Source: a virus. From it: a stretch of DNA of 24,772 bases. This document shows positions 1-22,366 of this stretch, one piece after another. The notes under the pieces were generated by a model. The model saw only the letters and a program-made list of their open reading frames with translations. It searched no databases and was not told the DNA's origin. Within the stretch, counting starts at the first letter, position 1. Each line of letters opens with the position of its first letter. The position numbers and the translations under genes were made by a program. The stretch spans positions 1-24,772 of the IMG/VR virus record IMGVR_UViG_3300025088_000019; one strand, given 5' to 3'.

Positions 1-2
1 TT

Positions 3-56
3 CCAGAGGAACTGAAAAAAGATATCGGCATTAGATTAGCCCGAGGTGTGGTATAA
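3..56 (+). CDS. HNH homing-type endonuclease, 3' end only (cut by window edge)
   Basis: The reading frame entering from the left edge encodes PEELKKDIGIRLARGVV followed by TAA at 54-56. This is identical to the C-terminus of the complete HNH gene at 7102-7683 on the other strand, and the DNA is identical too. The catalytic part would lie to the left of the window and cannot be seen. It sits directly before the primase, 38 bp away. In the right-hand copy the HNH gene is preceded by a tail gene, so this fragment may be a second HNH copy, or the same gene seen twice through a rearranged or chimeric contig. Confidence 0.75.
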   Translation, partial: PEELKKDIGIRLARGVV

Positions 57-59
57 CCC

Positions 60-88
60 TTGACAAATGGTGATCATTTAGATAACTT
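60..88 (+). promoter_or_regulatory. Possible sigma70-like promoter before the primase
   Basis: A perfect TTGACA lies at 60-65, with a weak -10 candidate TAACTT at 83-88 after a 17-base spacer. It falls in the 38-bp gap between the HNH stop and the primase ATG. The -10 matches consensus at only three of six positions, and the start point would fall very close to the primase ATG. The same sequence is repeated in reverse at 7070-7098. Only the -35 box is convincing. Confidence 0.25.
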
Positions 89-94
89 ACGAGT

Positions 95-1000
95 ATGACT
101 CTACTCACACTACTCCAACAAATTATAGGGAATTACACCCAGCAAGGCGATGAATACTTGTTTCATTGTCCGTTTTGTCATCATAGCAAAAAGAAACTAT
201 CTATTAATATATCAAATAATAAATGGAAGTGTTGGACATGCGGAAGTAAGGGCGGCCATATCATTTGGTTACTAAAAAAACTCAATATCTCAAAAGAACT
301 TATTAATCAGTTTAAAGAAGTATTGGGTGATGAAGATATCAAAATCTATAAATCTACAACGGCAGATATTAAGTTATATCTTCCACATGAATATCAACCG
401 CTGTGGAAAACACAGAAAAGTTACGCATATTTAAATGCAACCTCGTATTTGAAACACCGAGGAATTCGATCAGATGATATATTGCGATATCGCATGGGAT
501 ACTGTGAAACTGGTGCATATGCCGGTCGTATCATTGTCCCGTCTTACGATCACACCAACCAATTAAATTATTTTACTGCACGGTCTTTTTACGAGGGTGG
601 GATGAAATATAAGAATCCTCCTGTAACAAAGAATATTGTGTGTTTTGAAAATATGACAAATTGGGAGGATCAAATAATTTTATGTGAGGGCATGTTTGAT
701 GCTATATCTCTTAGGAGAAATGCTATACCGTTACTTGGCAAAACGATCCCGAAGAATTTGGAAAAGGCATTATTACAAAACAAAGTAAAAGATGTAATTA
801 TTTTCTTGGACGAAGATGCACAATCTGACGCTATGAAATTGGAACAACATCTTAAACAATATGAAATGAATGTCAGCATCGTCTTAACGAAAGGTAAAGA
901 TGCAGCTGACATGGGGTTCGAAACTGCGTGGGAAGAAATCAGCAAATCTCGTAGTACAAATTTTAAAGAATACATTGAACAACGGTTATTAAATATATGA
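95..1000 (+). CDS. DnaG/gp61-type DNA primase
   Basis: This 301-residue protein has the two-part design of phage primases. An N-terminal CHC2-type zinc site shows C25-x2-C28-H29-H30 and C46-x2-C49. A Toprim catalytic domain has its acidic motif at ILCEGMFDA (E198) and the metal-binding DxD at FLDEDA (D239, D241). T4 gp61 is 342 residues, so the length fits. Primases of this family make short RNA primers for lagging-strand synthesis together with a replicative helicase, which is not in this window. The ATG at 95 has no strong Shine-Dalgarno sequence. The stop overlaps the next start as ATGA, suggesting translational coupling with the Mre11-Rad50 gene. The first six codons lie inside the inverted repeat and occur again as a dead fragment at 7046-7063. 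Confidence 0.9.
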   Translation: MTLLTLLQQIIGNYTQQGDEYLFHCPFCHHSKKKLSINISNNKWKCWTCGSKGGHIIWLLKKLNISKELINQFKEVLGDEDIKIYKSTTADIKLYLPHEYQPLWKTQKSYAYLNATSYLKHRGIRSDDILRYRMGYCETGAYAGRIIVPSYDHTNQLNYFTARSFYEGGMKYKNPPVTKNIVCFENMTNWEDQIILCEGMFDAISLRRNAIPLLGKTIPKNLEKALLQNKVKDVIIFLDEDAQSDAMKLEQHLKQYEMNVSIVLTKGKDAADMGFETAWEEISKSRSTNFKEYIEQRLLNI

Positions 1001-4000
1001 TTATACCAGTACATTTTGATACACTAAAATCAATAGTTCACATTGCGGATACGCATATAAGATTATTCCGCCGTCATGAAGAATATGAAGCGGCATTTGA
1101 AACACTGTACGCAGATATTCGCAAAAAGAATCTCAGAGATTTCATCATTGTATTGGCCGGAGATATTGTCCATGCAAAGACCGATATGTCACCAGAAATG
1201 GTGGAAGTTACTTCACGATTCTTATCTAACATTGCCAACATTGCCCCTACGATTTTAATTGCGGGTAACCACGATTGCAATCTCGCAAACACCAATAGAT
1301 TAGATAGTCTAACCCCAATCGTCAACAGTCTACAACACCCAGACTTACATTACATTAAATATTCGGCAATCGTCACCGTTGCTGATACTAATTTTGCAAT
1401 CATGTCTATTTTTGACGAGGCAACAGAATGGCCTCGTGCGCAAGAATGTGATGCACCAAATAAAATTGCACTGTACCACGGACCTGTACACGGTTCAACG
1501 ACCGATGCGGGATTTACGATTACAAATCGACACGTGCATGTGGATACATTTAATGGATTCGACGCTGTACTTTTAGGAGATATTCATAAACACCAAGTAC
1601 TCCAAGAGAGTAATCCTATTATCGTATATGCATCGAGCCTAATCCAACAGAATCATGGCGAAAGTCTTGAGAATCATGGATGGTGTTTATGGAATGTTCC
1701 CAATAGGTCATTTGAGTTTGTTCCACTTAATAATGATTATGGATATGTAACTTTAGAGGCGTCAAACGGAAATATTACCTATCCGTCACATATGCCGAAA
1801 AACGTTCGCATGCGATTGTTTACGGGTGACCTTGATAACACACAAGTAAAAAAGATTATTACCACGCTCCGCACCAATCACAACATCATTGAACTCAGTG
1901 TCAATAAAAGTCGGTTTAACAAAACGATTAATCGGTCTACCACGGTTGCCCATGACGCAATGGATCTCACCGATGTGTCATTGCAGAATACGTTAATCAC
2001 CGATTGGTTGACACGAAATAATACGTCATTAGATGTGGATGTGTTAACTGCTGTCCATCGCATTAATAAAGACCTCAATAGTAAAATTCACCACGATGAT
2101 CAGTCAAGAAATATTCACTGGCGTCCGCTGAAATTTACCTTTTCCAATATGTTTTCATATGGAGAAGATAATGAAATTAATTTTACCGATATGAAGGGAT
2201 TGTATGGAATATTTGCCGCAAACGCCAGTGGTAAAAGTTCCATCATGGATTCGTTGATGTTTTGTCTATACGACAAGACTCCACGGGCATTCAAGGGCGA
2301 TCATATTATTAATAATCGCAAGGATACGTTTGAATGCGAACTCACCTTTGAAATCAATAACGAAGTGTATGGTATCAAGCGAAATGGTACTCGTAAGAAA
2401 AACGGAGATGTCAAGGTTGATGCGCAATTCTGGAAGGTTACTTCTACTGGTAATGTTTCTTTAAATGGCGAAGACCGTCGAGATACGAATGCTAATATTC
2501 GTAATTATGTGGGATCATATGAAGACTTTGTAATGACGGCATTGAGTGGACAAACCAGTAATGCTTTGTTCATTGATAAGTCACATTCGGAACGGAAAGA
2601 TTTGCTTATTCAGTTTATGGGATTGAATATCTTCGATAAATTATTTGATGCTGCCCACGATGAAGCAAAGGAAATTACGGGGGTTCTTAAACGATTTAAA
2701 AAATCAGAAGTCACCGATAATATTGCGTCTACACATAATCAACTGACTACGGCACAACAAGAAGTGTCGCACGTTGAAGTAGAACATATGGAACTCAAAG
2801 AAAGTCGTGAATTACTTGATGATGTATTAATTTCTACACAAGAATTAAAACGTCCCGTTCCACCAACGTCTGGTAATCTTGTTGATTTAACTGCTGCATT
2901 AACTAAGGCAACCACCAATCGTAAGATAGCGCAAGAAGATGTAGCCATTGCAGAATATGCATTGACTAATAGTAACGCAGATTTAACTGATGCGCTAGGT
3001 GACTTTGAGCAATATAATATGGTTGCTCTTAAGGAATCCGTTGCAAACTGGAATAAGTTAAATGATATTTTGGTAACGGGTAATAGTGCGCTTCGTGTTG
3101 TTAATACCAAGATTGATGAAAAGACAAAGTTCAAGAATAAACTGTCCAGTTACAAGTATAATTTAAATTGTGATGTATGTGTCACCAACAATGCATCGGT
3201 TATTGAAGATTTGGGTGCGGTAAATAATGAATTAGATGAGTTAAATGCAAAACGACTTATCCAAGAAGATTCCATCACTCAGATTATTGATAAGATGAAA
3301 CCGTTAGAAGCGGATAAAGAACTATATGAAGAAGCACTTGTTGCACAAAAAGAAATTGAAGTATGTGGGTTTACCGTCGAAAAGTCAAAAACTGTGCTGG
3401 CAAACTGCAAGGTAGTTCTTGAAAAGATAGAAATTTCTATTCCTAATATTGAAAATGAGATTGTTGTTTATAAAACCAATGAAGAAAACATCCTACACAA
3501 TCAAACTATTGATACAGACATTGCACAGATTCAAGAAAAGATTACTACGAACAAAAAAATGATGCAATCGGTAGAACAGAATCTTCGTACTCTGCATGGT
3601 AATATTAGTGTATTAGAATCAAAGAAGCAAGAATTGGTCAATAAGTTAAAAGAAGCAGAGGAACTGGAAATTACTTACGAAGCATACAATCAATATATGA
3701 CGGCGGTGGGCCGTGACGGTATTCCCTACGAACTTATGAGTAAGGCAATTCCTAATATTGAATCTGAGATTAATTCAATCCTCTCACAGATTGTAGACTT
3801 TACCGTGGCATTGGAAGTAGACGGCAAGAATATTAATGGTAAATTAATTTATGACTATGACCGTATTTGGCCATTGGAAAATTCTTCTGGCATGGAACGA
3901 TTTGTGAGTAGTCTTGCCATTCGCATTGCACTCATGAATGCGAGCAATCTTCCGAAGTCAAACTTTATGATTATTGATGAAGGCTTTGGTGTATTGGATG

Positions 4001-4155
4001 CGGAACATATGCATTCTATGCAAACGCTATTCAATTTACTCAAAACACACTTTGATTTTATATTAATAGTAAGTCACTTGGAAACTGCCCGTGATATGGT
4101 GGATACTCTAATTGAAATTAAACGAGAGGATGGGTATTCGCAAATCTCAATTTAA
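997..4155 (+). CDS. Fused Mre11-Rad50 (T4 gp47-gp46 / SbcD-SbcC) recombination nuclease
   Basis: A single 1052-residue frame carries both halves of the SbcCD/Mre11-Rad50 complex. Residues 1 to about 375 are an Mre11-type metallophosphoesterase: IADTH (H20), AGDIVH (D56), AGNHD (H92), YHG (H161) and LGDIHKHQ (D195, H197, H199). From about 376 a Rad50-type ATPase follows: Walker A AANASGKSS (408-415), coiled coil on both sides of a CDVC zinc hook (C725, C728), ABC signature region SSGMERFVSS (963-972), Walker B FMIIDEG (990-996), D-loop VLDAE (999-1003) and H-loop VSHLE (H1027). T4 encodes gp47 (339 aa) and gp46 (560 aa) separately; they process DNA ends for recombination-dependent replication. 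The signature SSGME deviates from the usual LSGGE. The coiled coil is short compared with cellular Rad50. The start overlaps the primase stop (ATGA). No frameshift or internal stop is present. Confidence 0.93.
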   Translation: MIIPVHFDTLKSIVHIADTHIRLFRRHEEYEAAFETLYADIRKKNLRDFIIVLAGDIVHAKTDMSPEMVEVTSRFLSNIANIAPTILIAGNHDCNLANTNRLDSLTPIVNSLQHPDLHYIKYSAIVTVADTNFAIMSIFDEATEWPRAQECDAPNKIALYHGPVHGSTTDAGFTITNRHVHVDTFNGFDAVLLGDIHKHQVLQESNPIIVYASSLIQQNHGESLENHGWCLWNVPNRSFEFVPLNNDYGYVTLEASNGNITYPSHMPKNVRMRLFTGDLDNTQVKKIITTLRTNHNIIELSVNKSRFNKTINRSTTVAHDAMDLTDVSLQNTLITDWLTRNNTSLDVDVLTAVHRINKDLNSKIHHDDQSRNIHWRPLKFTFSNMFSYGEDNEINFTDMKGLYGIFAANASGKSSIMDSLMFCLYDKTPRAFKGDHIINNRKDTFECELTFEINNEVYGIKRNGTRKKNGDVKVDAQFWKVTSTGNVSLNGEDRRDTNANIRNYVGSYEDFVMTALSGQTSNALFIDKSHSERKDLLIQFMGLNIFDKLFDAAHDEAKEITGVLKRFKKSEVTDNIASTHNQLTTAQQEVSHVEVEHMELKESRELLDDVLISTQELKRPVPPTSGNLVDLTAALTKATTNRKIAQEDVAIAEYALTNSNADLTDALGDFEQYNMVALKESVANWNKLNDILVTGNSALRVVNTKIDEKTKFKNKLSSYKYNLNCDVCVTNNASVIEDLGAVNNELDELNAKRLIQEDSITQIIDKMKPLEADKELYEEALVAQKEIEVCGFTVEKSKTVLANCKVVLEKIEISIPNIENEIVVYKTNEENILHNQTIDTDIAQIQEKITTNKKMMQSVEQNLRTLHGNISVLESKKQELVNKLKEAEELEITYEAYNQYMTAVGRDGIPYELMSKAIPNIESEINSILSQIVDFTVALEVDGKNINGKLIYDYDRIWPLENSSGMERFVSSLAIRIALMNASNLPKSNFMIIDEGFGVLDAEHMHSMQTLFNLLKTHFDFILIVSHLETARDMVDTLIEIKREDGYSQISI

Positions 4156-4204
4156 ACGGGGAGTAAACTATTTATACATACCCACGGATATAACTGAGAA
4201 GTGA

Positions 4205-6559
4205 ATGGCACGTACCAGAAAATCTATACAACCGTTAAATCTTTATAAATATGATGTTCTTATAGAAGATAAGGCCGCCAGATCAGATTACTTCAAAGTC
4301 ACACAATTTGATGGTAATTTTTATGGCGGCCGTAATGCGTTTCTACTGGCAGGAAATGTGGCGTTACGTCCAAATTCAAAAATACTCGCCGAAATATTAA
4401 ACAAAGATGGAAATACTGTATATAGCGCCCCGGTTGCATTTTTCATAGAAGGCAACTCACGACTTGTACAAATTGAAGTATATAATGATACACCTATTGG
4501 ACCTGGAAAAATTGTATTGTTGGGGAGTGTTGATACGTACTTAGATGGAACGCCGATTCCTGATATCTGGCGCGGTAAATATAATGTTCGGTGGACGGCA
4601 GACGTAGCAATTTCTCCACTGATAGAAAATAAAACACCCATTCGATTTCAAACTCCCCCGTCAGTGGTGGTAGAGGAAAAATTCTACTTTTCACCCAGCT
4701 CATCATTGTTTACAGAGCAACTTGCGGCGACGGCAAGTATTGAACTTACGCCAAAATATTATAATGTATTTCCAAATGGATATTTAGCAAAGATTCGTGG
4801 AGCTGGGCAATATGAGGCTGATTATTTGAACGGCTTCATCACAGGAACAATTACGTTTAGTAGTGCCACCGTCTCCGAAACGGCGAGTGTTAGTATACCA
4901 ATCACTAAAATTTATAACAAAGACCTTGCAGAATCCAACGGAACATTAATTTATACTAATAACGGAACACTAATATTGGGTGGTGTGATAAGTAGTAGCG
5001 GAATATATACTACCGAAATTCAACCACTGGGGTCAGTTTTAGTGAGTAGTAGTATCAATATTCAATATGGTAAATTAACCACTGCTAATTTAGGATCAAG
5101 TGTGTCATTTGCAAAACTCCGACTAGTAGATCTAAAAACAATATCTGGTGAAATTAACAAAATTAGATTGTCTTATAAACCCACCACTGAACCCGGTGAG
5201 TTTGTATCACTGGGAGATATAAATACCACCGTTACTGAATTGGTGGCGGTAGACAGCGGTAGTAAAATTGTAAACACTGGCAACTTTGGTGATGTAACAA
5301 TTGCTGATTATTGGTATAGCGAAACCATGTCATTACAAAAAAATGACTATGAACCAATTTTACCTTTATATTACATCTCTTCGTCGCTGTCATCTTCATA
5401 TCTTCCCATCGTGTACTCGTCTAATGTGTTATTAGATGCAATAACTGCAACTCCACAAATTGTTAGTAGTAGTTACATTAACAATGTTTCATACTTTATT
5501 GGAACAAAAACTACTAATGCAATACAACTATTCCCCCGAGGAGAATATACACTTGCATTTGATGCAATTGTAAGTCGTACATCGGCATCAATTACACTAA
5601 ATCAAAATGATTATTCATTAGAAGTATATTTAGTAAAAGAACCAGGCGTTGGAGGGAAAATACTAAATACGGATTCCCGTGGACAATTGCTGGGCACGTT
5701 ATCACCAACATCTACCTTTCAACGACAAAATTTTGAAAGCACGGAGTTCAACTTCATACCCAAAATTATTAATACTGGTAATTTTGGATTGCGATTTGTG
5801 GCATATGGTGGATTTTGGAACATTGCAAACGTATCAGTAAAACCTGCACAAGAACCGTTCTTCAGTCCAGATGAAATTGATGTACTTATACCTAATATCA
5901 ATTATGTCAATAAAATATTAACTTTTAAGGCACAATATTTAGATGTTAATAACAACTCCATTGGATTAGCTACACTTTCAGTGCCCACATATTTCGTTGG
6001 ATCATCTATTAGTGCATCGAATAGTATAACGGGTGGAGTTACAAATTATATTCCTTTGTGGACAAGTTCAACGGCATTATCATCTAGTATATTATATCAA
6101 AGCGGTAGTAATATCGGTATTGGAACAACGGTTCCAAGTGCATCCTTGCACGTGTCGGGTACCGTAATGGTACAATCAATAATTGAAAGAGTGGCAGTAA
6201 CTGCCTCGGCACCACCAACCACATTAAATTATAATGTGCTAGATCAAGCAATATTGTTCCATAGTGCAAGTTCAACCACAAATTGGACATTAAATTTCCG
6301 TGGTAACGCAAACACAACACTAAATAGCACGATGTATTCGGGGCAAAGTTTAACGGCAACCGTGTTAGTATTAAATGCAGCAACTGCATATTCTGCATCG
6401 GCATATCGAATTGATGGTGCGGCAATTACGCCACGGTGGCAGGGAGGAACATCTGGTTCGGCAAACATCAACAGTCTTGATGCACATACGTTCACCATCA
6501 TAAAAACGTCGGCGTCGGCGTCATATATATTGCTGGGATCAATTACCAAGTACACATAA
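4205..6559 (+). CDS. Tail-fibre / virion structural protein
   Basis: This 784-residue protein is rich in Ser, Thr, Asn and Val, with no signal peptide or membrane segment, as expected for a beta-structured fibre. The N-terminal 160 residues (starting MARTRKSIQPLNLYKYDV) probably form the virion-attachment part. Two stretches beginning NTGNFG (the second near residue 520) look like related jelly-roll modules. Near 633-655, GSNIGIGTTVPSASLHVSG is the stalk motif common in trimeric phage fibres, often just before a tip or chaperone domain. A tip domain of about 125 residues (660-784) contains AYRIDGAAITPRW and ends LLGSITKYT. No peptidase S74 chaperone is visible. It follows the recombination gene by 49 bp and precedes the Gly-rich fibre by one base. 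Fibre identity is inferred from motifs and composition. Confidence 0.75.
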   Translation: MARTRKSIQPLNLYKYDVLIEDKAARSDYFKVTQFDGNFYGGRNAFLLAGNVALRPNSKILAEILNKDGNTVYSAPVAFFIEGNSRLVQIEVYNDTPIGPGKIVLLGSVDTYLDGTPIPDIWRGKYNVRWTADVAISPLIENKTPIRFQTPPSVVVEEKFYFSPSSSLFTEQLAATASIELTPKYYNVFPNGYLAKIRGAGQYEADYLNGFITGTITFSSATVSETASVSIPITKIYNKDLAESNGTLIYTNNGTLILGGVISSSGIYTTEIQPLGSVLVSSSINIQYGKLTTANLGSSVSFAKLRLVDLKTISGEINKIRLSYKPTTEPGEFVSLGDINTTVTELVAVDSGSKIVNTGNFGDVTIADYWYSETMSLQKNDYEPILPLYYISSSLSSSYLPIVYSSNVLLDAITATPQIVSSSYINNVSYFIGTKTTNAIQLFPRGEYTLAFDAIVSRTSASITLNQNDYSLEVYLVKEPGVGGKILNTDSRGQLLGTLSPTSTFQRQNFESTEFNFIPKIINTGNFGLRFVAYGGFWNIANVSVKPAQEPFFSPDEIDVLIPNINYVNKILTFKAQYLDVNNNSIGLATLSVPTYFVGSSISASNSITGGVTNYIPLWTSSTALSSSILYQSGSNIGIGTTVPSASLHVSGTVMVQSIIERVAVTASAPPTTLNYNVLDQAILFHSASSTTNWTLNFRGNANTTLNSTMYSGQSLTATVLVLNAATAYSASAYRIDGAAITPRWQGGTSGSANINSLDAHTFTIIKTSASASYILLGSITKYT

Positions 6560-6560
6560 T

Positions 6561-7127
6561 ATGACGCCGGTATTAGGAACATTTAGTGCTGGATCAGCAC
6601 GAGGATATAGAGGAAACGTGGCGGCCGCAACACCGACGCCAACGCCAACACCAACTGTAACCCCAACGTTAACTCCAACGTTAACACCAACACCCACGGT
6701 TACGCCAACACCAACGCCCACGGCAACGCCAACGCCAACACCCACGGCACCAGCATTTGCTATAACTTATTTAGTAGTAGCCGGTGGCGGCGGTGGTGGA
6801 AATAACCGTGGCGGCGGGGGTGGAGCCGGTGGGTTATTACAAGGAACAACATCTCCATCCATTGGCTTCAGTTACGCAGTTTCCGTGGGCCCAGGTGGTG
6901 GCTCTCAAACAAACGGAACAAATTCTAGTGCAATTGGATTCACTGCAACTGGAGGTGGTGCAGGAGGTACCCATTCAAGTCCTGCCAATGGATCATCCGG
7001 TGGGTCTGGAGGAGGATGTGCTATGTGCTATGGTGGACTTTCTTTTAGTGTGAGTAGAGTCATACTCGTAAGTTATCTAAATGATCACCATTTGTCAAGG
7101 GTTATACCACACCTCGGGCTAATCTAA
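6561..7127 (+). CDS. Pro/Thr-linker, Gly-rich tail-fibre protein, 3' end replaced at the repeat junction
   Basis: Residues 1-23 are a short head, 24-63 a Thr-Pro linker, and 64-160 a Gly-rich domain beginning AFAITYLVVAGGGGGG, the usual opening of Gly-rich fibre-tip proteins in tailed phages, which normally run much longer. Residue 162 spans base 7046, where the inverted repeat begins. The last 26 residues (SVSRVILV onward) are the non-coding strand of the HNH/primase region read out of context. The native C-terminus is therefore missing. The ATG follows the upstream fibre stop by one base, implying a cotranscribed fibre pair. It could be a fibre truncated by a real rearrangement, or intact in the phage and cut only in this contig. 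Confidence 0.7.
   Translation: MTPVLGTFSAGSARGYRGNVAAATPTPTPTPTVTPTLTPTLTPTPTVTPTPTPTATPTPTPTAPAFAITYLVVAGGGGGGNNRGGGGGAGGLLQGTTSPSIGFSYAVSVGPGGGSQTNGTNSSAIGFTATGGGAGGTHSSPANGSSGGSGGGCAMCYGGLSFSVSRVILVSYLNDHHLSRVIPHLGLI
6630..6751 (+). repeat. Tandem hexamer repeat encoding a Thr-Pro linker
   Basis: About twenty imperfect copies of a 6-base unit of the type ACNCCA/ACGCCA encode alternating Thr-Pro, with occasional Val, Leu or Ala. Such linkers are extended and flexible, and here join the head of the fibre protein to its Gly-rich tip. Shorter relatives occur twice in the minus-strand gene at 15825-17672. Repeat length may vary by slippage. Confidence 0.9.
7031..7063 (-). pseudogene. Dead 5' fragment of the primase gene
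   Basis: On the minus strand the primase start is repeated exactly (MTLLTL, 7063 down to 7046), with its upstream spacer. It then runs into antisense fibre sequence, giving KESPP and a TAG at 7031-7033. The 11-codon frame cannot encode a primase. It shows the direction of the event: the right-hand arm is the copy whose gene context is broken, while the left arm has an intact primase. Confidence 0.85.
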
Positions 7128-7157
7128 TGCCGATATCTTTTTTCAGTTCCTCTGGAA
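7046..7157. repeat. Right arm of the inverted repeat (partner 1-112)
   Basis: Exact reverse complement of 1-112. On the minus strand it contains, in order, the end of the HNH gene, the TTGACA-containing spacer (7064-7101) and primase codons 1-6. The identity breaks at 7045/7046, inside the Gly-rich fibre frame. The stop codon of that hybrid frame (7125-7127) lies within the repeat, as does the primase start in the left arm. Confidence 0.97.
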
Positions 7158-7683
7158 CAGTTTCTAGCCAGTCTAGTAATAATTGAAAGTTATCTTCGTG
7201 TAATGATCCTTTCATTCCGTTACTTGTTTTACATATTAACTGTATATTATTTATATTACTCGACCCACCCTTTGATATGGGAATAATATGATCGAATACA
7301 AAGGTGTTAATATTTAATATCTTATCACAGTATTTACATTGTTGCCCATAAAAATTATACACCAATTCTCTAAGTTCTTCGACGGTAATATTACATTCAA
7401 CATTGTGTTTTTTTGAACGTGCTACCATTGCAACTTTAGTCGAATCTATTCGTTTTAGAATTTTATTCACCACTTTATTTAAATTGCGTTTATGACACGA
7501 TTTTATTTTTTCCAGAAATTTTTCTTGCCACTCTGTTCGGATAGCGGTTTTTTGTACGGCTTGTGCCGATGGCGTTCGTGGTTTAGGTAAACGCAATTGA
7601 GCCACATCATCGGTTGTTCCATTAAATATAGCATGGACATCCGACGAGTGGCTCAATTTGTTAATGCGTTTTTTCATAACCAT
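7102..7683 (-). CDS. HNH endonuclease (free-standing homing type)
   Basis: This 193-residue protein has a basic, helical N-terminal half, likely for DNA binding, and a C-terminal HNH domain. CKYC (C116, C119) starts the domain, FDHIIPISKGG (D131, H132) is the first catalytic segment, and NNIQLICKTSNGMKG (145-159) supplies the later Asn residues. The second zinc knuckle is incomplete: C151 is followed by KTSN rather than the usual pair of Cys. Free-standing HNH genes in T4-like phages are usually mobile, cutting unoccupied sites and spreading with their flanks. It is the last gene of the minus block, 11 bp after the tail gene at 7695-8135. The start at 7683 (MVMKKR) has no clear Shine-Dalgarno; the Met two codons later is an alternative. 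Its last 18 codons lie in the inverted repeat. Confidence 0.85.
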   Translation of the reverse strand: MVMKKRINKLSHSSDVHAIFNGTTDDVAQLRLPKPRTPSAQAVQKTAIRTEWQEKFLEKIKSCHKRNLNKVVNKILKRIDSTKVAMVARSKKHNVECNITVEELRELVYNFYGQQCKYCDKILNINTFVFDHIIPISKGGSSNINNIQLICKTSNGMKGSLHEDNFQLLLDWLETVPEELKKDIGIRLARGVV

Positions 7684-7694
7684 TTATAGTAAAA

Positions 7695-8135
7695 TTAACC
7701 GTTTATACCTGCAGGCCCAGGTCCATATCCACTACTATTGGGATTTGCTCTTGTCTTTGCAAATTCTGATAGTCCACCAGCTGCAAAGAATGATTTATCT
7801 ACTAATTGTGAGAATTTGTGTAGTATTGTTCCTGGTGCGTTTCTTACATCACTAATTGTGGTGAACCGAGAATTTGTAAGATATGCGTCACCCTTTTGAA
7901 CTCCTACTGGCAACCAACGACTTAATGGATACGTTTTATTGTTGGTCGCTGCAGGGGTAGTTAATGTACCCGCCTCGTTGGGAGTAAATTCTTTCTGCAC
8001 GGTATCTACGGCCGGTGTTCGTGTTCGTGGCCCACCGTCCCAGAAATTTACTCCAGGTGAGGCTGCAGTGCCTATAGTTTTGACCTGTACTATGGTCGGT
8101 GAGGTGGCGGCTGTGTATCTCGTTAATAAGTCCAT
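7695..8135 (-). CDS. Small virion-associated protein of unknown function
   Basis: About 146 residues starting MDLLTRYTAATSPT. I chose the ATG at 8133-8135 because GGAG stands six bases before it; a longer frame from a TTG at 8147 would read through that site. The sequence has no recognised domain. It contains FWDGGPRTRTP and ends in a Gly/Pro-rich tail SGYGPGPAGING. Position at the end of the tail operon, 15 bp after a paired virion protein, suggests a minor tail or fibre-associated component; this is inference from context only. It directly precedes the HNH gene. Confidence 0.65.
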   Translation of the reverse strand: MDLLTRYTAATSPTIVQVKTIGTAASPGVNFWDGGPRTRTPAVDTVQKEFTPNEAGTLTTPAATNNKTYPLSRWLPVGVQKGDAYLTNSRFTTISDVRNAPGTILHKFSQLVDKSFFAAGGLSEFAKTRANPNSSGYGPGPAGING

Positions 8136-8150
8136 ATAAATCTCCAAGTA

Positions 8151-9080
8151 TTAGGTATCAAACCTAACTATAAATGTTTGGTTAACATCAAAAGTTCTCT
8201 GAATTGGTTCGCTTGTTTTTGCCACTGCTAACAATTCATATTTATCGTTATATAACCCAATTGTGGTAACGTATGGTTTGATTACCCCGGCCCTCATTAA
8301 ATTATATAAATTCCATGTTGAACTTCCGCTGGATGGCTTGATGTTCATTTGATTAAACGATTGCGTAACACTACCCGTTGTGGCCGTATATGTGGATAAT
8401 ATTGACGGATTAAATGGCGAAAAGTTAAAGTCCATAGGACGCAACTTTACATTTACTTGGTGTCGATTGAGCAGTACATCACTACTATAATCCACATATA
8501 AATTCGTGCCGCTTACTATTTGTAATCCAATTGATGATATAGAAGTGTTTACCGACCCCGTATTATGTTTTATAACTGCTATACCCTTTTTATAAAAAAT
8601 ATTACCCAAGTATACATTAACAGATGCGCTTACATGATATAAATTTCCTTTACTATCGTCTCGTATATATGTATTTGCAATTTCAGTACTTAATTCGAAT
8701 GATCCAGGCTTTATACGTTCTCCATAAAAATTCTGTCCAATGCTAAGTACATACGAATCATTGGACAGTCCTGCTAAACTAGAAGTAACTAATACCGATC
8801 CACTATAGAAATTTCCGCTATTGTAGAACAAATGTTTTATAGAAGAATATAAAATATATTCATATACTCCCGAGTCTTGATTTATTTTGGGAAAATCGCT
8901 TCCATAAAAATCTACAGTGTCATTTGTGGCGCGGTCGATGGTGACCGCACCAACTAAATTATCCGGAGAAGTAATATTTATTCCACTTGATCCTGATTGT
9001 AATTCCCAAGACATAGGTGCAGATGCATATATGTCTTCTACTGTATAATCTTTTGAATCTAATGTACTAAATACTTTCAT
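8151..9080 (-). CDS. Virion structural protein, paralogue of the 9097-10296 product
   Basis: This 309-residue protein is rich in Ser, Tyr, Asn and Val. It shares a core with its upstream neighbour: FYGERIKPGSFEL with YIRDDSKGNLY (about 118-148), then GNIFYKKGIAVI (159-170). Its last 43 residues, around VTTIGLYNDKYELLAVAK and ending VRFDT, closely match the neighbour's C-terminus. Tandem duplication followed by divergence is the simplest reading. Similar patterns occur in structural proteins of T4-like aquatic phages, from memory and not checked. GGGAG and AGG precede the ATG at suitable distance. The role is probably tail or baseplate periphery. Confidence 0.7.
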   Translation of the reverse strand: MKVFSTLDSKDYTVEDIYASAPMSWELQSGSSGINITSPDNLVGAVTIDRATNDTVDFYGSDFPKINQDSGVYEYILYSSIKHLFYNSGNFYSGSVLVTSSLAGLSNDSYVLSIGQNFYGERIKPGSFELSTEIANTYIRDDSKGNLYHVSASVNVYLGNIFYKKGIAVIKHNTGSVNTSISSIGLQIVSGTNLYVDYSSDVLLNRHQVNVKLRPMDFNFSPFNPSILSTYTATTGSVTQSFNQMNIKPSSGSSTWNLYNLMRAGVIKPYVTTIGLYNDKYELLAVAKTSEPIQRTFDVNQTFIVRFDT

Positions 9081-9096
9081 GTATTACCTACTCCCG

Positions 9097-10296
9097 TTAA
9101 AAATCGAGTCGCACCCTTAACAAAACTTCCTCGTCAAAGCTTTTACGAACTGGCTTACTAAGTTTTGCCACCGCTAGTAATTCGTTGCTATCATTATATA
9201 ATCCTATCGTGGTAATATATACTTTTGGATCATTTTTAAATTCCGATTGTACTAATACTCCCGTGGATGCATTTGAAAACGTTGGGTTATTAGAATAATT
9301 ATATTCTTTATTTCGCAACCGCACGAAGTAGTGGGTTGATGCTATCGTTTCGGCCGAACGTGCTCTAAATCCTTTATTAGAACCAGATGCATTTGATGCA
9401 TTTCTAATTGACACAAATAATCCCGTGTGATTATATGCCGATCCGTTTGTACTCCAATTAGCTTCGGTAAGCTCATGTATAATGGGTGCAAATGGAGATG
9501 TTTCAGAATTAAATGCCGTTGCCGATGAATAAAATAATGTTGTACGTGACGATGTTGCCTCACTACCCGTTATTAATACCGACGAAGCAGATGTAAAAAA
9601 TCCAACCGCCGGTCCAATTGCATTGGGGTTTAATACGATAATGCCCAAATCGGGATACACTAATCCATATCCAGGTCCACTGGTTCCGAATGTGGTAGCA
9701 TTGGTCGATGATGAAATTGATCCCGATATAGTTGATAGTGCGCCAGAAATTATATTATACACTCGGCCTGCTTTACTGTTTGCCGTCAATGCACCCAGTG
9801 TTTGCCCACTATCGTCGATGAATGTTCTAATACCATTGGCACCAGACAATGGAAGTTCCCAATTGCCAGGATCAAGTTGTTCACGAATTCGCGAGCGTTG
9901 AAAATTGATGACATAAATGTGATCAGACTCTACGCCCTGAAAGGAGAACTTCGTGTCTTCTGGGTTTAGTAATAAATTTCTATATTGACTGTATATTGCC
10001 TTGGTCGGTAATTTTGATTGTTCATTTACGTCGAGTGTTGGTGAGCCTCCGCCGTTTATATGACCATACGTAAGAGCAAATTGCACTTCTGCTAATTCAC
10101 CACTTGCGCCACCGGGATCAATATTATATACATCGAAATAATATTCACCGCTAATTTTAGTTTGTTGCCCAACGGCGACATTAACATATAGTAATCCCTC
10201 AAATGATCCAGTATCACCGGAAAATAATCCGGTGGTTACGGTTGTGGGATTTGCTGGTACTATGTCGTCATTTTGAAGCGTAGTATAAATAGTCAT
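9097..10296 (-). CDS. Virion structural protein, larger paralogue of the 8151-9080 product
   Basis: This 399-residue protein has RIREQLDPGNWEL with FIDDSGQTL (136-167), GLVYPDLGIIVLNP (211-224) and a C-terminal module VYITTIGLYNDSNELLAVAK...VRLDF (about 356-399). All three regions align in order with the smaller neighbour. The first 100 residues and a Ser/Asn-rich middle (190-340) are extra. No enzymatic motif is seen. AGGA lies about eight bases before the ATG. The shared C-terminus may be an oligomerisation or attachment module. Annotated as a structural protein from context and composition. Confidence 0.72.
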   Translation of the reverse strand: MTIYTTLQNDDIVPANPTTVTTGLFSGDTGSFEGLLYVNVAVGQQTKISGEYYFDVYNIDPGGASGELAEVQFALTYGHINGGGSPTLDVNEQSKLPTKAIYSQYRNLLLNPEDTKFSFQGVESDHIYVINFQRSRIREQLDPGNWELPLSGANGIRTFIDDSGQTLGALTANSKAGRVYNIISGALSTISGSISSSTNATTFGTSGPGYGLVYPDLGIIVLNPNAIGPAVGFFTSASSVLITGSEATSSRTTLFYSSATAFNSETSPFAPIIHELTEANWSTNGSAYNHTGLFVSIRNASNASGSNKGFRARSAETIASTHYFVRLRNKEYNYSNNPTFSNASTGVLVQSEFKNDPKVYITTIGLYNDSNELLAVAKLSKPVRKSFDEEVLLRVRLDF

Positions 10297-10315
10297 ATGT
10301 ATATCCTAGTGTTGA

Positions 10316-10963
10316 TTACGTTGTCGTTGCTGGGAGGATAACCACGGGAATTACTTTTGTTGCGCCCGTTTCATTACCAATAATAACTAACTGTGTTTCT
10401 GTTCTTGTGCTTACATTTTTTGGTGTAAGTGTAAACTGTGTTCCTGTTAGTACGATGGCATTTTGTGATGTTGCCGAGGAAGTTTCTCCGACAAACGTAG
10501 GCACCGTAGCGCTTCCAGCCACCCCGTTACTTGTTAATGTTGCGGCTTCTCTGTCATAAAGAACTGCGGTGTATCCAAGGCTTTGGTCAAGGTTGGTACC
10601 ACCCGTAGTAATTACTGTTATTTGTTGACCCAACGCATTCGTAGAATAACTGAGTTCTATGGACAGTGGCGCAACTTGTAATAAAGGAATTGTATTTTGT
10701 CCACGACCAAACGTGACCAGTTTATATCGTAAATTTTGTGTTTCGTCCACCGATGCTTCTACTATGGGCATATTTTCAATGGCCGATCCGTAATATTCTG
10801 TGCCGAGCGGGTGAGCTGGATCGAATAGTGAATAATCAATCTCGTCGTCTGCCACCGCAAACTGTGTGATATTGAATGCCGAGCGGCCGCGAGACAGTAA
10901 TTCCCGTCCTTTTTTTGTTAAGATAGCGTCAACGGTAACGCTTGCTTTATTTAAATATCCCAT
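10316..10963 (-). CDS. Tail/baseplate-associated structural protein
   Basis: This 215-residue protein has a distinctive N-terminus: KKGRELLSRG, FNITQFAVADDEIDYSLF and DPAHPLGTEYYG within the first 60 residues. I associate this pattern with virion proteins of aquatic myoviruses, without being able to verify it. The rest is Thr/Val-rich and predicted beta, ending in VVILPATTT. It lies between the giant wedge protein and the paralogous pair, so it may link baseplate and fibres. GGAG precedes the ATG by nine bases. A 58-bp leader upstream (10964-11021) contains no clear promoter or terminator. Confidence 0.65.
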   Translation of the reverse strand: MGYLNKASVTVDAILTKKGRELLSRGRSAFNITQFAVADDEIDYSLFDPAHPLGTEYYGSAIENMPIVEASVDETQNLRYKLVTFGRGQNTIPLLQVAPLSIELSYSTNALGQQITVITTGGTNLDQSLGYTAVLYDREAATLTSNGVAGSATVPTFVGETSSATSQNAIVLTGTQFTLTPKNVSTRTETQLVIIGNETGATKVIPVVILPATTT

Positions 10964-11021
10964 AAATAATAACTCCGAGTAATAAGAGGTCTGATATACA
11001 TATATAGTATTGTTTGTTTTG

Positions 11022-14000
11022 TTACGTTACGTTTAGTGTTCCGCCGCCGCCGGTCGTTATTTCTGTGTTGGTTATAGTACGTGCCACGGTAATTTCCGTT
11101 CCCTCACTTACAAATATTTCTACCGGATCTTTTCCGTCAATCGTTGTGTCCTTTGTATTTAAACACCCCACATAATTTCTACGTTTAGTTGCGGTAGAGT
11201 TATCTCTAAAAAACCTATAGTGCTTTCGCAGATGTCCAAATGGGACTCTTGGTTCAATCTCTAGTGCATAATAGTATAATAATAATGTAATATTTTTACT
11301 AATTGCGTCTTGATTATCTATGGTGTAAAAAAGTTTCCCCAACGGAGGATTACTGTCTGCTACTAACGTGGCAATTGGTCCTATGTTTTCTATTCCATTG
11401 GTAGATGTAACTGCGTCTAATAATACGCCATGTGAACCGGTCGGCTGCGTCACAATAGCTCTGTTTATATCTTGATTACGTAAAATTTCAGTTCTATATA
11501 ATCTAACTCGTAACCCAGAAACTCCAGTTTGCAAACCGAATAATAGTGCAATATTTTGTACCGATAATTCTCCTGTGATATATGTGTTACCTGCTATTGC
11601 TGGCAAATTGAACAAATCTACATATCGGGCAGGCGTATCTATGAGTTTATCTATTGATATTGTTGTAGTTTTAAAATTATTTAATTCTGGCTTTGCTACG
11701 GTATACGTATCAAATACAATTCTACGAGGAACTCTTTTTTGTATTGGTAAAAATTGTAATAATTCCCAATTTTCTTTATCTAGAGACGGCGGCAAATACG
11801 ATGGAACTCCGTCAATATAAAATGCAGTTCCATCCGTTGGCGGCCGATACGATGCTCTTGTTGTAAATACATAATATTTTCCATTTCCAGCGGCTGCAGT
11901 CTTTATAGAACCACTCACACTTGTAAACGTAGAATCTACTGATTGATATACTACATCATATATATTATACCTTGCACCCGATGCCCACGTTTTCTGATTA
12001 TCGAATGTTTGATTTTCCATATTCCATGTTGCATTCAATGGTCTGGTATATACTGGTTTTTTTATAATGACTGGAAAATAGTAAATTCCCTGTGTATCAT
12101 TAAAATATGTGTACACGCCAACATCTCTGAAATCAGTGGATGGCGGTATATCATATATTGCGGGTATAAATACACTTGTTACTCCGCCGGGGCGGGGTGT
12201 TTCAATTTCTGTTGTAAATAATTTTCTAGTGTACAATCTATTATATGGTTCTGCCCCAACACTTCCGTAATTTATATCGTTGTATGAAATTTTATTTAAA
12301 TTGGACAGTTGTAAATCAATATTTGATGGTCTTTCTGGCTTAGATGAACTGATGTCCGTGTAATTCCATTGTTCGTGTCGTTTAGTATACGTGCGACTTT
12401 CTGCATTTACATTGCGTATAGGTTCTATTGCAATTGCTTGTAAGTTTGAATAGCTACCCGTCATTAATGTAGGTTGCATATCTAGCAATGCGGTATACTT
12501 AATAGTATTTGCTGTCATTGGAAACGGCAGCGTCACTGGTTCTTGTATTCTATATGTTGGATAAGCTCCTTCAACCTTTGCAACAGCAGATTCTATTGTA
12601 TCAGATACATTAAATGTTGCTCCATAATCTGGTTTACTACTTGATAATGACCCCGCTGCTGCTAACGTTTTTTTCGTACCCGTTCCATAGAAACGAATAT
12701 TTTTTACTGGTGGTATTTTTACTTGTTCTAGAATATTAGGTTCTATAAGTATTCCATCCAATACCGCTGCCTTTGAAGGAATGAAATAGTCAAGTACTTG
12801 ATTTAACACCGACGCCACATCCGATGCAATTCGTATGAACTTATTCGTATTGACCGTTACATAATGATACTGTTGATAATGTTGTTTTAAAGTTTCTAAG
12901 GACTTGTCAAATGTCGTATATAATGTTGTCGGTGATCCTAGTACCGCATTAATATTTTCCAATCCCAAATTACGAATTATATTTTGATTGACAATTTCAG
13001 TTGGTGACATAGCCAATATGACTTTGTTACGTCCCGCACGAAGTTTTTTTGTTTGTGGTTGAACAATACTTTGTGTTCTATATAATCTTGATCCTTTGCT
13101 ATTGTCTATGAATATTGGCGGTGCCGCCACTTTTATTTTATTTGATATGTATCCGCTAGATCCAACCAATGGCATTTCTTGCCGCACCGTTCTATTATAT
13201 CGTACAAAATCAGATCCACTAATATTAACGGCTGTTAAATTTTGTAGCGACGGGGACACTGATATATTTTTGTACGGCGATTCATTTGCAATCTGTGATG
13301 CCGCAAGAGATGCGGTATTAATTTTATTAAAGGATAACTGCGCTATTAAATTGTCTGCTGCAGAAGAATATGTATCTCCCGCATTTGAACCCGCATCAAA
13401 TGCGGTATTTAAAATTACTTCATCTGATAGAGTGTCATTCCATAAACGTACCTCGTCCACGGTCCAGTTTGCTCTAGCAATTACTCTACTACCAACTCCA
13501 CCAATACCCAAAAATCCAGTATTTTGCCACAATGATGCAAATTTCGATGACTCACTTGATATAGAATTAAATATTACGTCTTCCCCATCAACCTGAGTTA
13601 CGTATAGCGATGCGGTTGATGCATAAACCTGTATAGTTACACTTACCCGTTCATTCAAAAGTTCTTGAAAACTACTTGACAATAATACTATATTACCGCT
13701 TCCCGATGTAAGTTGAATTTTACTAAGAGTTGGTATAGTAGGATGTTTTGCCAAATGCAATCCCCACCTTGCGTCACCAGTAACCAACGTGGCTATACTT
13801 GATGTAATTGCCGAAGGCACGCACGTAAATTGCAGTGTGGTCGGCGACCGCAACGATGCTGAAACGGGTATAGTTACGTATGATGTTTTTGTTGTATTGA
13901 ACTTCAATCCATTTGTATACTCATCGTATATATGGTATGAGCTTGATTCTGGCGTACCCGTTTCCTTTACACTGAGTAATTGCGGACCAATGCCAAAAGT

Positions 14001-15425
14001 TTTTAATAACGTTTCTAATGCAGTCTTTGTACCCTTTGCCTTTGCAAAAAACGGTAAATTATGTAATAATCTTTTATAAATTTCCGCCGACATATCTCGT
14101 CGCGGAATTTCTGAGTCAGTTCCGATGATATTGTCCGCCAAATTATATACGGAATTTAACGTGGGTAGTTTAAATCCAATGGATTCTGCAATTTCATTCA
14201 CTAAATCTTTGGAAAGTTCTTTATTAGGATCTAACTGTCTGCTGTAGATATTCGGGAATTGATCAACGAACGGTTTAATAGTATCAAAGAAATGCCCTAT
14301 CATAGAAACAAACGTGATATATGCTCCAGAACTATCATCTTCCCGCAGATGTGATGGGATTGTATTAACTAAATTATTTTCGTTAAACTCATCAAATCGT
14401 TGTGCAATTAGACTTTGCGTTTCATACCAATTCGTGATCGTATTACTACTAACGGACCACAAGCTACTTCCAGACTTTGGCCAATATCCAATTGAATTAT
14501 ATTCTTGCCCCGTGTCTGCATAATGGGCAGACGCAGAATATGGACTATTAGATCCTGATGGAGTAAAATACAAATACTGTTCATACCGATCAAATCCACG
14601 AATGATATCTTCTTGCTGTTTTGCAAATGTTGCCGATTGATCTTGTACGTAAATTAATCCAACGGATGCAGTATTTGATGTATATGTAGATAAGAATTGT
14701 TTACGGCTACTCTCCAATATTTCTACCTGACGAACTTTTTCCTTAAACGTTTCAAGTCGCATAGCAGCAGACCCGTAAAACATAAAATTATTATAATCCG
14801 TAAAGTCTATATTCAACTCCGATGAATTAAAATCATAAGAATACCACTGTCTAAAGATTTCATCTTCAAATGATTTATTTTGAAATGTATCCGTTAGTCC
14901 CACCGAACCCGATTGCAATGACAGTTTTTGCAATGTCATATTGCTCAGAGATTTTCCAGTATCTAAATCTGCTTGCACTGCTAAATTTTTTGGACGTAGG
15001 TATGGCGTTGCATCTAATTCAGGCGCAAACCGAACGCGAACTTTGTCAATTAGTGTTTTGGTAACTTCACGACTTAAGAATACCGAAGAACTGACGTTAA
15101 TATTATCTGGAACTGGTTGTAATAATTTTAATTGTATTCGCAAAATATTATTTTCGTCAGTTGCACCGTACCGATATGCCAGTGCCACGGATTGTCTATC
15201 TTCACCATAGTTCAATAATGTTTTTAAAGTACGTTCTTCATCTACGTAATTATCTATAGCCGTTTGTAAAAATTGTAATGCTGACGCAATCAATGGCTGT
15301 GAAATATTGACATTAATCAGTGTAGGATTAATTGCTATATTATAATTTCTTGTAAGTGGCTGCGATGGCGTTACTGATGGCGATATAATTACTCGGATAG
15401 CAGCCTGTATTGTCGTATTATACAT
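11022..15425 (-). CDS. Giant baseplate-wedge protein, gp7-like, with a LamG/ConA-type lectin domain
   Basis: This 1467-residue protein is the largest in the window. Residues 400-485 contain LSKDLVNEIAESIG, then AEIYKRLLHNLPFFAKAKGTK and ALETLLKTFGI, a pattern of phage tail protein I/gp7-type wedge proteins. Directly after this, about 505-680, comes a concanavalin-A/LamG-like domain: GLKFNTTKTSYVTIP at its start and WTVDEVRLWNDTLSDE near its end. The remaining 780 residues are Asn/Thr-rich with no recognised domain. T4 gp7 is 1032 residues. Position downstream of gp25 and gp6 supports a wedge role. The inserted lectin-like fold could bind sugars or serve as structure; that is inference. Its start overlaps the previous gene's end by eight bases. 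Confidence 0.7.
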   Translation of the reverse strand: MYNTTIQAAIRVIISPSVTPSQPLTRNYNIAINPTLINVNISQPLIASALQFLQTAIDNYVDEERTLKTLLNYGEDRQSVALAYRYGATDENNILRIQLKLLQPVPDNINVSSSVFLSREVTKTLIDKVRVRFAPELDATPYLRPKNLAVQADLDTGKSLSNMTLQKLSLQSGSVGLTDTFQNKSFEDEIFRQWYSYDFNSSELNIDFTDYNNFMFYGSAAMRLETFKEKVRQVEILESSRKQFLSTYTSNTASVGLIYVQDQSATFAKQQEDIIRGFDRYEQYLYFTPSGSNSPYSASAHYADTGQEYNSIGYWPKSGSSLWSVSSNTITNWYETQSLIAQRFDEFNENNLVNTIPSHLREDDSSGAYITFVSMIGHFFDTIKPFVDQFPNIYSRQLDPNKELSKDLVNEIAESIGFKLPTLNSVYNLADNIIGTDSEIPRRDMSAEIYKRLLHNLPFFAKAKGTKTALETLLKTFGIGPQLLSVKETGTPESSSYHIYDEYTNGLKFNTTKTSYVTIPVSASLRSPTTLQFTCVPSAITSSIATLVTGDARWGLHLAKHPTIPTLSKIQLTSGSGNIVLLSSSFQELLNERVSVTIQVYASTASLYVTQVDGEDVIFNSISSESSKFASLWQNTGFLGIGGVGSRVIARANWTVDEVRLWNDTLSDEVILNTAFDAGSNAGDTYSSAADNLIAQLSFNKINTASLAASQIANESPYKNISVSPSLQNLTAVNISGSDFVRYNRTVRQEMPLVGSSGYISNKIKVAAPPIFIDNSKGSRLYRTQSIVQPQTKKLRAGRNKVILAMSPTEIVNQNIIRNLGLENINAVLGSPTTLYTTFDKSLETLKQHYQQYHYVTVNTNKFIRIASDVASVLNQVLDYFIPSKAAVLDGILIEPNILEQVKIPPVKNIRFYGTGTKKTLAAAGSLSSSKPDYGATFNVSDTIESAVAKVEGAYPTYRIQEPVTLPFPMTANTIKYTALLDMQPTLMTGSYSNLQAIAIEPIRNVNAESRTYTKRHEQWNYTDISSSKPERPSNIDLQLSNLNKISYNDINYGSVGAEPYNRLYTRKLFTTEIETPRPGGVTSVFIPAIYDIPPSTDFRDVGVYTYFNDTQGIYYFPVIIKKPVYTRPLNATWNMENQTFDNQKTWASGARYNIYDVVYQSVDSTFTSVSGSIKTAAAGNGKYYVFTTRASYRPPTDGTAFYIDGVPSYLPPSLDKENWELLQFLPIQKRVPRRIVFDTYTVAKPELNNFKTTTISIDKLIDTPARYVDLFNLPAIAGNTYITGELSVQNIALLFGLQTGVSGLRVRLYRTEILRNQDINRAIVTQPTGSHGVLLDAVTSTNGIENIGPIATLVADSNPPLGKLFYTIDNQDAISKNITLLLYYYALEIEPRVPFGHLRKHYRFFRDNSTATKRRNYVGCLNTKDTTIDGKDPVEIFVSEGTEITVARTITNTEITTGGGGTLNVT

Positions 15426-15825
15426 TTTTAAGTACCACTGTGCCGTTTAGTAAATTTTTTACTGTAAACTGTATGGGTAGCATCGTAGGTGTGATACTAG
15501 ATCGTTGATCTAAAAATGAAGTTTTTAATTGGACGGGAAATGAAGTTTGTATATTTGGTGCCAATGTAAATACATATGGACTAGTTGTATTATTTGTATT
15601 TATATCAAGAATTTTATCGTTAAATTCTATAGTAACTTCCAATGGCGCATTTAATGTCGTGTTACGGACAATGATTGTATCATTATATTGCTGTTCTGCT
15701 CCTATTACATAATTAATTTCAGACGGTGGATTGAAACTAATTGTTACCATATCATTTATAGAACTAACAACCTGAGTTCCTGTTGATGGTCTATATGGTT
15801 CATAATTAAGTAAAAATGGAATCAT
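15418..15825 (-). CDS. Small beta-rich tail protein of unknown function
   Basis: This 135-residue protein starts MIPFLLNYEPYRPSTG and is predicted mainly beta, with alternating hydrophobic and Thr/Asn residues resembling an Ig-like or jelly-roll fold. No known motif is recognised. Its ATG overlaps the preceding stop as TAATG and its own end overlaps the giant wedge gene by eight bases, so its product is likely made in step with both. A structural role beside the wedge is inferred from this coupling. Confidence 0.65.
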   Translation of the reverse strand: MIPFLLNYEPYRPSTGTQVVSSINDMVTISFNPPSEINYVIGAEQQYNDTIIVRNTTLNAPLEVTIEFNDKILDINTNNTTSPYVFTLAPNIQTSFPVQLKTSFLDQRSSITPTMLPIQFTVKNLLNGTVVLKNV

Positions 15826-17672
15826 TATAATTCTCTGATGCCGACTGACATTTGCAATCTAGATGTGCCGTCACCCAATTGATTTAGTAAAGCAGGCGTG
15901 GTTTGCACAACAAATTGTACATCACTTCTTGGGGCAATTATAAATTTATTGGGAGTGACTGCAATATCCGTGTTGGTTATTATTTGTATTTCGTATGTTA
16001 ATTGTGTTGATGCGTTAGTTGCTGTTATTACTTGTGACATAGGATACTGAGTAGACCCACGTTGATATTGAAATGTCAATTCATTATTTAAATCAGGAGT
16101 AAACGTGATTTGTGTTAGTGGCTCCCAACATGTTCCCCCACCAGGTCCGGTATACACTACTTCACGGCGATTATTTGGAACGCCGGTATATAATTCTTCA
16201 GAAATGCAATCTCTCCACCGTAAGATTATTTCTTCTGTTGGAGTTGGAGTCGGTGTTGGCGTTGGCGGTGGTGGCGTATTACAAGTTTGCTCATTTGAAC
16301 AATCTGTGCCAAGATTTTGAGGTACTTGTGCGTTTCTACCGGCTTGTGGAATATCGGCCGAACAAATGTTTGTAAATGAGGTAAACGTTTCTGTTGTTCG
16401 AATTGATCCCGCTACACATGGTCGGTATGTTACTTCAAATGGTTGTCCTTGCGCAGTTGGTGCTACGAAATAACATTTACATGCGTCTTGTGTGGCGTTT
16501 CTTGCAAATCTTGCTTCATATACATTATCTTTATCCGACAAAATGGCGGGAGAATAATTAGTAGACCATAGAAGACCGTTTAAATACCACCCCACAAACG
16601 TATATCCAGAATTTGCAGTTGCTTGAAAATTAGTTCTTTCACCAACTCTTGACACGATAACGGTGCTAGGGATTGGCGTTAACAAGCTTGTTCCACTAAC
16701 CACTCCGCCTTCAACCGGGGCTGCCACCAAAGTAGTAGTATATCTAGTTGACGGCGGTGGAGCAACTATTAATTCAAAAAATGCAGTTACCGTTCTATTC
16801 CCATCGACTATAAAACTTATTGGCGTAGTTGTCTGTGTACTTATGAGGTTGTCTGTTGTACCATCACGCAATTCAAATCTATTAAAGGTGTGTGTATTTG
16901 CAGGTACAGCATTAATTCTAACAGTTCTTCTTGCAGAACCAACTAAATCTCCAGATGCAATATTTATTGATCCGCCAATTGATGGCTCTACAGCCAATGT
17001 AACAGCGGTAAGTAGTGGGGTAGCTGTTAATTCAAAAAATGCAGTTACCGTTATATTTTCATCAACTGTAAAGTTTATTGGCGCAGTTGTTTGTGTACGT
17101 ATCAAATTGTTCGTTACACTGTCACGCAATTCAAATCTATTAAAAGTGTGTGTTCTTATAGGAAATGCGTCAATTGTAACACTTCTTCCCGGAGCTCCAA
17201 CTAGAACTCCCGCTGTAATATCTACTGATCCACCATTGAACGCATCCAATGTAACGGCGGTGAGTGATTCCGGTAAAGTTAAATCACATGCGGCAATATT
17301 AGTAACGCTGATTTGATATGGACCAGCTGTTATACTTGGTTGTGACTTCGAACAGATGGTTGTAGAAAATAATTGCTGTCCTGCCGCATCAGGATCGGCC
17401 GACGCTTGTTGTATTAAATTTATGACTCCCGTTGAGTTTACAACATTATTACCGCAGTCTGTATAGATTACCGTTACTGTAACATCACTACCTGCTTGAG
17501 CAATTGTTGTGAGAGAGTATTCTCTACAAATACCACTGAAATCTGAAGCGGGTGTGGCTGTAGGTGTGGGTGTGGGCGTAAACGCCGTTCCACCTCCTAA
17601 CTGACCAGTAGTTCCTGCGCCATCGGTTTGTTCATCATTTAAAAAAAATTGAGAATTGAACGGAATTGTCAT
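15825..17672 (-). CDS. Modular virion protein with Cys-paired modules, internal repeats and Thr-Pro linkers
   Basis: This 615-residue mosaic is read as follows. A Thr-Pro linker (about 31-40) leads to Cys module 1 (C49 to C129). Two near-identical repeats follow at 138-215 and 222-303, each with HTFNRFELRD and ending VTAFFEL. A third, diverged copy at 310-390 has GYTFVGWYLNG and YEARFA, typical of InlB-type B-repeats. Cys module 2 (C398 to about C464) is followed by a second linker (467-479) and a C-terminal beta domain. The Cys modules share spacing of the form C-x-Y, later Y-x2-C, then IC. Such repeats are beta-folds found in surface adhesins. Host-surface binding is plausible but inferred. 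A weak AAGG precedes the ATG. Confidence 0.7.
   Translation of the reverse strand: MTIPFNSQFFLNDEQTDGAGTTGQLGGGTAFTPTPTPTATPASDFSGICREYSLTTIAQAGSDVTVTVIYTDCGNNVVNSTGVINLIQQASADPDAAGQQLFSTTICSKSQPSITAGPYQISVTNIAACDLTLPESLTAVTLDAFNGGSVDITAGVLVGAPGRSVTIDAFPIRTHTFNRFELRDSVTNNLIRTQTTAPINFTVDENITVTAFFELTATPLLTAVTLAVEPSIGGSINIASGDLVGSARRTVRINAVPANTHTFNRFELRDGTTDNLISTQTTTPISFIVDGNRTVTAFFELIVAPPPSTRYTTTLVAAPVEGGVVSGTSLLTPIPSTVIVSRVGERTNFQATANSGYTFVGWYLNGLLWSTNYSPAILSDKDNVYEARFARNATQDACKCYFVAPTAQGQPFEVTYRPCVAGSIRTTETFTSFTNICSADIPQAGRNAQVPQNLGTDCSNEQTCNTPPPPTPTPTPTPTEEIILRWRDCISEELYTGVPNNRREVVYTGPGGGTCWEPLTQITFTPDLNNELTFQYQRGSTQYPMSQVITATNASTQLTYEIQIITNTDIAVTPNKFIIAPRSDVQFVVQTTPALLNQLGDGTSRLQMSVGIREL
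16771..17286 (-). repeat. Two tandem ~255-bp DNA repeats inside the modular virion gene
   Basis: Units beginning at 16771 and 17029 share long identical stretches: both open AATTCAAAAAATGCAG on the plus strand and both contain CACGCAATTCAAATCTATT. They encode the two HTFNRFELRD repeats. Spacing is 258 bp at one end and 252 bp at the other, so one small in-frame indel separates them. The high DNA identity suggests recent duplication or gene conversion. Confidence 0.85.
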
Positions 17673-17684
17673 ATAATATATACC

Positions 17685-18548: not shown

Positions 18549-18549
18549 A

Positions 18550-18939
18550 TTATAAATTTGACCCAGTAGTTAGTTCGGTGAATCTCGTATCTATATTTCG
18601 TATAACGTCAGCATTGTACCGTTCAAAGTAAATAGGGACATAATATCCCTGCGATGCGGTGGGTTGAGTAGTCATACTTGGACTTTGTAACATTGTTGAA
18701 CCATCAAAATCTAACGGTGTTACAATTTTAAACGGATACACTGTTGAAATTTCCGGTCGCAATTCTTGCAATGACTGTGTGGTTTGCACTAAATTGGGAG
18801 ATATTGTACGGGTATCTAATTCATATATGTCACCCTCTGGAGAGAAATACGAAGAAGACACTATTATAATATCTTCGTTATCCTTATTAAGATCTACCAA
18901 AAATTTTGGAATATATGAATTAAATATACTATGCATCAC
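18550..18939 (-). CDS. Small tail-operon protein of unknown function
   Basis: This 129-residue protein has no recognised motif; it contains SSYFSPEGDIYELDTR and ends YFERYNADVIRNIDTRFTELTTGSNL. The first codon is GTG at 18939 with an ATG immediately after (18934-18936), so the exact start is uncertain. It overlaps the end of the upstream DNRLRE-like gene by about eight to eleven bases, depending on the start. Position suggests a small baseplate or fibre-attachment subunit. Confidence 0.6.
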   Translation of the reverse strand: MMHSIFNSYIPKFLVDLNKDNEDIIIVSSSYFSPEGDIYELDTRTISPNLVQTTQSLQELRPEISTVYPFKIVTPLDFDGSTMLQSPSMTTQPTASQGYYVPIYFERYNADVIRNIDTRFTELTTGSNL

Positions 18940-19969: not shown

Positions 19970-19981
19970 ATATTATCTCAA

Positions 19982-21967: not shown

Positions 21968-21977
21968 TGATTATCTC

Positions 21978-22358: not shown

Positions 22359-22366
22359 ATCTTATC

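Follow-up and report, generated by a model that had tools for sequence, protein, structure and literature searches.

A perfect inverted repeat around primase, Mre11-Rad50 and fibre genes in a viral contig is very probably a fold-back chimera

The window analysed here is a complete IMG/VR record of 24,772 bases, with base 1 at the terminus of the assembled contig and not at an arbitrary cut. The gene content is ordinary for a tailed phage and includes a DnaG-type primase, a fused Mre11-Rad50, an HNH endonuclease and a baseplate wedge protein (Table 1). An earlier note, made from the letters alone, had described an HNH gene, a primase gene and a truncated fibre gene at this locus, and all three descriptions are borne out.

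Table 1. Features of the window, with the arms of the inverted repeat and the junction between the two blocks.
Feature	Position	Strand	Remarks
Left arm of exact inverted repeat	1-112	+	About 56 nt of the HNH 3' end including the stop codon, a 38-nt spacer and six primase codons
DnaG-type primase, CHC2 zinc finger and Toprim, intact	95-1000	+	
Fused Mre11-Rad50 (SbcD-SbcC), 1052 aa	997-4155	+	Known kind (PMC3175470)
Large structural or fibre-like protein	4205-6559	+	Identical in UViG_3300046003_005507 (784 aa)
Gly-rich fibre ORF, very probably an artificial truncation, 188 aa	6561-7127	+	348 aa in UViG_3300046003_005507
Junction, very probably chimeric	7045-7050		TAGTG at 7046-7050, present in the fibre gene and, on the opposite strand, at the primase start
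Right arm	7046-7157	-	Same genomic sequence as 1-112, linked here to the side of the tail operon
HNH endonuclease gene, intact, single copy	7102-7683	-	
Tail/baseplate operon	7695-24772	-	Collinear with UViG_3300044522_000902 to the record end

The wording of the same note would fit either one or two genes for Mre11 and Rad50. The domains that it named are present, and the wording is settled in favour of a single fused ORF. Fusions of an Mre11-type phosphoesterase with a Rad50-type ATPase, 1052-1074 aa long, are encoded in the window (997-4155, + strand) and in two of the relatives described below, UViG_3300046003_005507 (501-3659) and L005 (11061-14285), and the protein carries a CxxC motif (CDVC) in the predicted hook region. 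Mre11/Rad50 fusion proteins are a known, sporadic kind (Yoshida et al. 2011, PMC3175470). They share with the present protein the combination of a metallophosphoesterase and a Rad50-type ATPase in one polypeptide, which is found here in a phage contig beside a primase. This likeness concerns the gene within the segment, not the repeat.

Two further elements lie on the tail side of the window. A long, strong hairpin sits just within the 5' end of the HNH coding sequence (7595-7658, - strand; RNA fold z-score -8.0), and it is also present in the relatives L004 (8526-8620) and L005 (9387-9480), with z-scores of -5.7 and -6.4 in the two. This hairpin could be a candidate restraint on translation of the endonuclease or a candidate end of the tail transcript. 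Two 221-nt direct repeats (78%; 16757-16977 and 17015-17235) fall within the ORF at 15825-17672 (- strand). They recur in UViG_3300044522_000902 and correspond to a repeated domain of a tail-region protein.

The most conspicuous element of the window is the perfect inverted repeat to which the note had drawn attention. Positions 1-112 and 7046-7157 are indeed exact reverse complements, with 112-nt arms (100% complementary) and 6933 nt in between. A chance origin is excluded, because the next-longest inverted pairs within the window reach only 37-38 nt at 71-84%. On the inner side, the arms stop matching at the first base past them (C versus A); on the outer side, a comparison is impossible since base 1 is the record end. 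The note had further singled out the right arm as the broken one, and this holds on both counts. That arm carries six primase codons (7046-7063), which are the codons of 95-112 met a second time, and the Gly-rich fibre is truncated at the join. The resulting hybrid ORF (6561-7127) consists of about 163 genuine codons and about 25 spurious ones, the latter from the antisense of the primase/HNH boundary. Both genes that meet at the junction are broken there, a point in favour of a chimera.

Relatives were sought in IMG/VR, the primase and HNH proteins serving as queries, and six records were obtained. Two of these, UViG_3300044522_000902 and UViG_3300046003_005507, are the same virus as the window, recovered in other datasets. 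The first differs from window 7046-24772 by one mismatch in 17,727 bases (99.99%) and from window 1-2264 by three mismatches (99.87%). In that record the two matched stretches adjoin each other directly, with the arm as their sole overlap; tail operon, HNH, primase and Mre11-Rad50 succeed one another on a single strand, and there is one HNH and no inverted repeat. The second record is 100% identical to window 498-7050 and runs on past 7050 into an intact Gly-rich fibre gene, followed by further genes. Its whole 35-kb length gave no match to an arm-plus-HNH query, and the part of it examined for inverted repeats holds none of at least 45 nt.

The remaining four relatives (L004-L007, two near-identical pairs) show 81-93% identity over the arm-plus-HNH region. 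In all four, the HNH gene closely precedes the primase in the same orientation; its usual position is directly upstream on the same strand. Each of the five relatives that include HNH has one copy of it, the arm sequence is likewise single in each relative covering that region, and no inverted repeat of at least 45 nt was found in the six stretches examined, which come from four of the records. The collinearity that the note had expected on joining the blocks through the repeat is therefore borne out, the same order being present in the near-identical UViG_3300044522_000902. From these alignments, the real order on one strand reads as tail operon, HNH, primase, Mre11-Rad50, large fibre and complete Gly-rich fibre. 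The left arm is the one real copy in the genome, in its native setting beside the primase, and the right arm duplicates it only because the contig traverses the locus twice.

One reading in the note was that the HNH gene and its flank had truly been duplicated through homing, which would leave a second, inverted copy beside the truncated fibre gene. Homing-type genes may act at this locus, as L004 and L007 carry a nuclease-like ORF between HNH and primase together with a duplicated primase start, but that duplication is in direct orientation and not inverted. A homing duplication also needs two endonuclease copies per genome, and each covering relative has one. Moreover, the supposed second copy in the window comes with all 17.7 kb of the tail operon, placed as usual, and the fibre site is uninterrupted in UViG_3300046003_005507, where neither an HNH copy nor the repeat follows position 7050. 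Such a duplication is hardly credible.

In L004 (UViG_3300009183_005162, 9146-10906), a 277-aa ORF with a weak, sub-cutoff match to DUF559 (nuclease-like) interrupts the primase gene at about codon 27, within the part that encodes the zinc finger, and L007 aligns likewise. A stub of 27 codons remains of the original primase start in L004, and a new, diverged primase N-terminus overlaps the end of the inserted ORF. It is possible that this ORF represents a homing insertion that re-supplies the part it displaced. Between primase and Mre11-Rad50, L004 has a 74-aa ORF (10903-11127) and L005 about 220 extra bases; in the window, the two genes overlap by 4 nt instead.

An invertible 6.9-kb segment between inverted repeats, with UViG_3300044522_000902 as the flipped isomer, was another reading. 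The tail side of that record does show the orientation expected from a flip of 113-7045. However, both isomers should keep the same two repeats, so that a flip must retain a repeat copy past the fibre end. UViG_3300046003_005507, identical to the window as far as 7050, has none: past that point it departs from the window and completes the fibre gene, and the 35-kb record contains no HNH or arm sequence. In addition, scans of ten window proteins against Pfam and PHROGs brought out no conspicuous recombinase, and a flip would alter no protein. Inversion can be given next to no probability. It fails for the same reason as homing duplication: under either reading the repeat should follow the fibre at 7045, and in UViG_3300046003_005507 it does not.

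The junction itself can be read base by base. After TAGTG, UViG_3300046003_005507 continues with GGGGATC and the window with TGAGTAG; the window exchanges the path of that record for the path of UViG_3300044522_000902 within the five bases, which are present in both parents. Among simulated random fold-back joins in the window sequence, at least 5 nt in common occurred in 0.6% (probability about 0.006). Each parental word at the junction was found once in IMG/VR, and the junction word was absent from the other IMG/VR viral contigs searched. Uninterrupted parents thus exist elsewhere, and the join is inverted, with partners less than 10 kb apart (6,933 nt) and 5 nt of complementarity, as befits a fold-back chimera.

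These properties have close counterparts among chimeras formed during multiple displacement amplification (MDA) with phi29 polymerase. In that setting, 406 of 475 chimeras were inverted, 337 of the 406 had partners less than 10 kb apart, and 93.5% of the inverted joins below 10 kb showed at least 2 bp of complementarity (Lasken and Stockwell 2007, PMC1855051). The present join is likewise inverted, connects segments less than 10 kb apart and has few complementary junction bases, and its geometry agrees with re-priming of a growing strand on a displaced one farther downstream. It differs in being known from an assembled contig and not from a read. An inverted join, a distance below 10 kb and few common bases together form the published signature of MDA template-switch chimeras (PMC1855051).

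A rare but genuine rearrangement in vivo, through inverted duplication or deletion during replication, could have been assembled from this one sample. Microhomology joins of the same kind can form in vivo, and sequence alone cannot tell the two origins apart. Such an event would nevertheless break the fibre gene, leave a junction absent from all other viral contigs and coincide with a record whose end falls precisely at the arm. Nothing speaks for it, and we regard it as very unlikely. The same low expectation applies to a real inverted-duplication variant circulating in the source sample, made by the phage replication or recombination machinery at the 5-nt microhomology.

The inverted repeat is almost certainly a fold-back chimera, that is, an amplification or assembly artefact and not a feature of the genome, because near-identical contigs from two other datasets show the normal arrangement on both sides of the join. 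This had been the first of the readings in the note, and it gains support from the collinear order in UViG_3300044522_000902 and the intact fibre in UViG_3300046003_005507. The comparisons establish directly the genuine order, the single copy, the intact fibre, the breakpoint and the common five-nucleotide word. While the DNA was amplified or made into a library, a strand that had passed from the tail genes through HNH to the primase start would probably have lost its template after base 112. Five matching bases (CACTA/TAGTG) would have let it prime again on a displaced, same-sense strand of that region, some 6.9 kb farther downstream. Synthesis would then have copied back through fibre, Mre11-Rad50 and primase. 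A contig formed in this way crosses the HNH/primase boundary twice, once in each direction, and therefore displays a 112-base "repeat". Its stop at base 1 may reflect the end of the template or read, or an assembler that halted at the fork.

As to the cause, we infer that a polymerase switched templates and that the join did not arise in computation alone. An assembler mis-join or another kind of template switch would yield an identical sequence; we know of no assembler word size that gives 112.

The main import of these findings is one of data hygiene. The public viral record should be split at 7045/7046, and the 188-aa fibre ORF should not be annotated. This ORF (6561-7127) is a by-product of the join, as is the second "primase start". 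Gene order and strand across 7045/7046 are uninformative, statements drawn across it are wrong, and no biology should be read into that point. The locus also illustrates neatly that a pair of relatives from separate datasets can tell a chimera from an invertible element.
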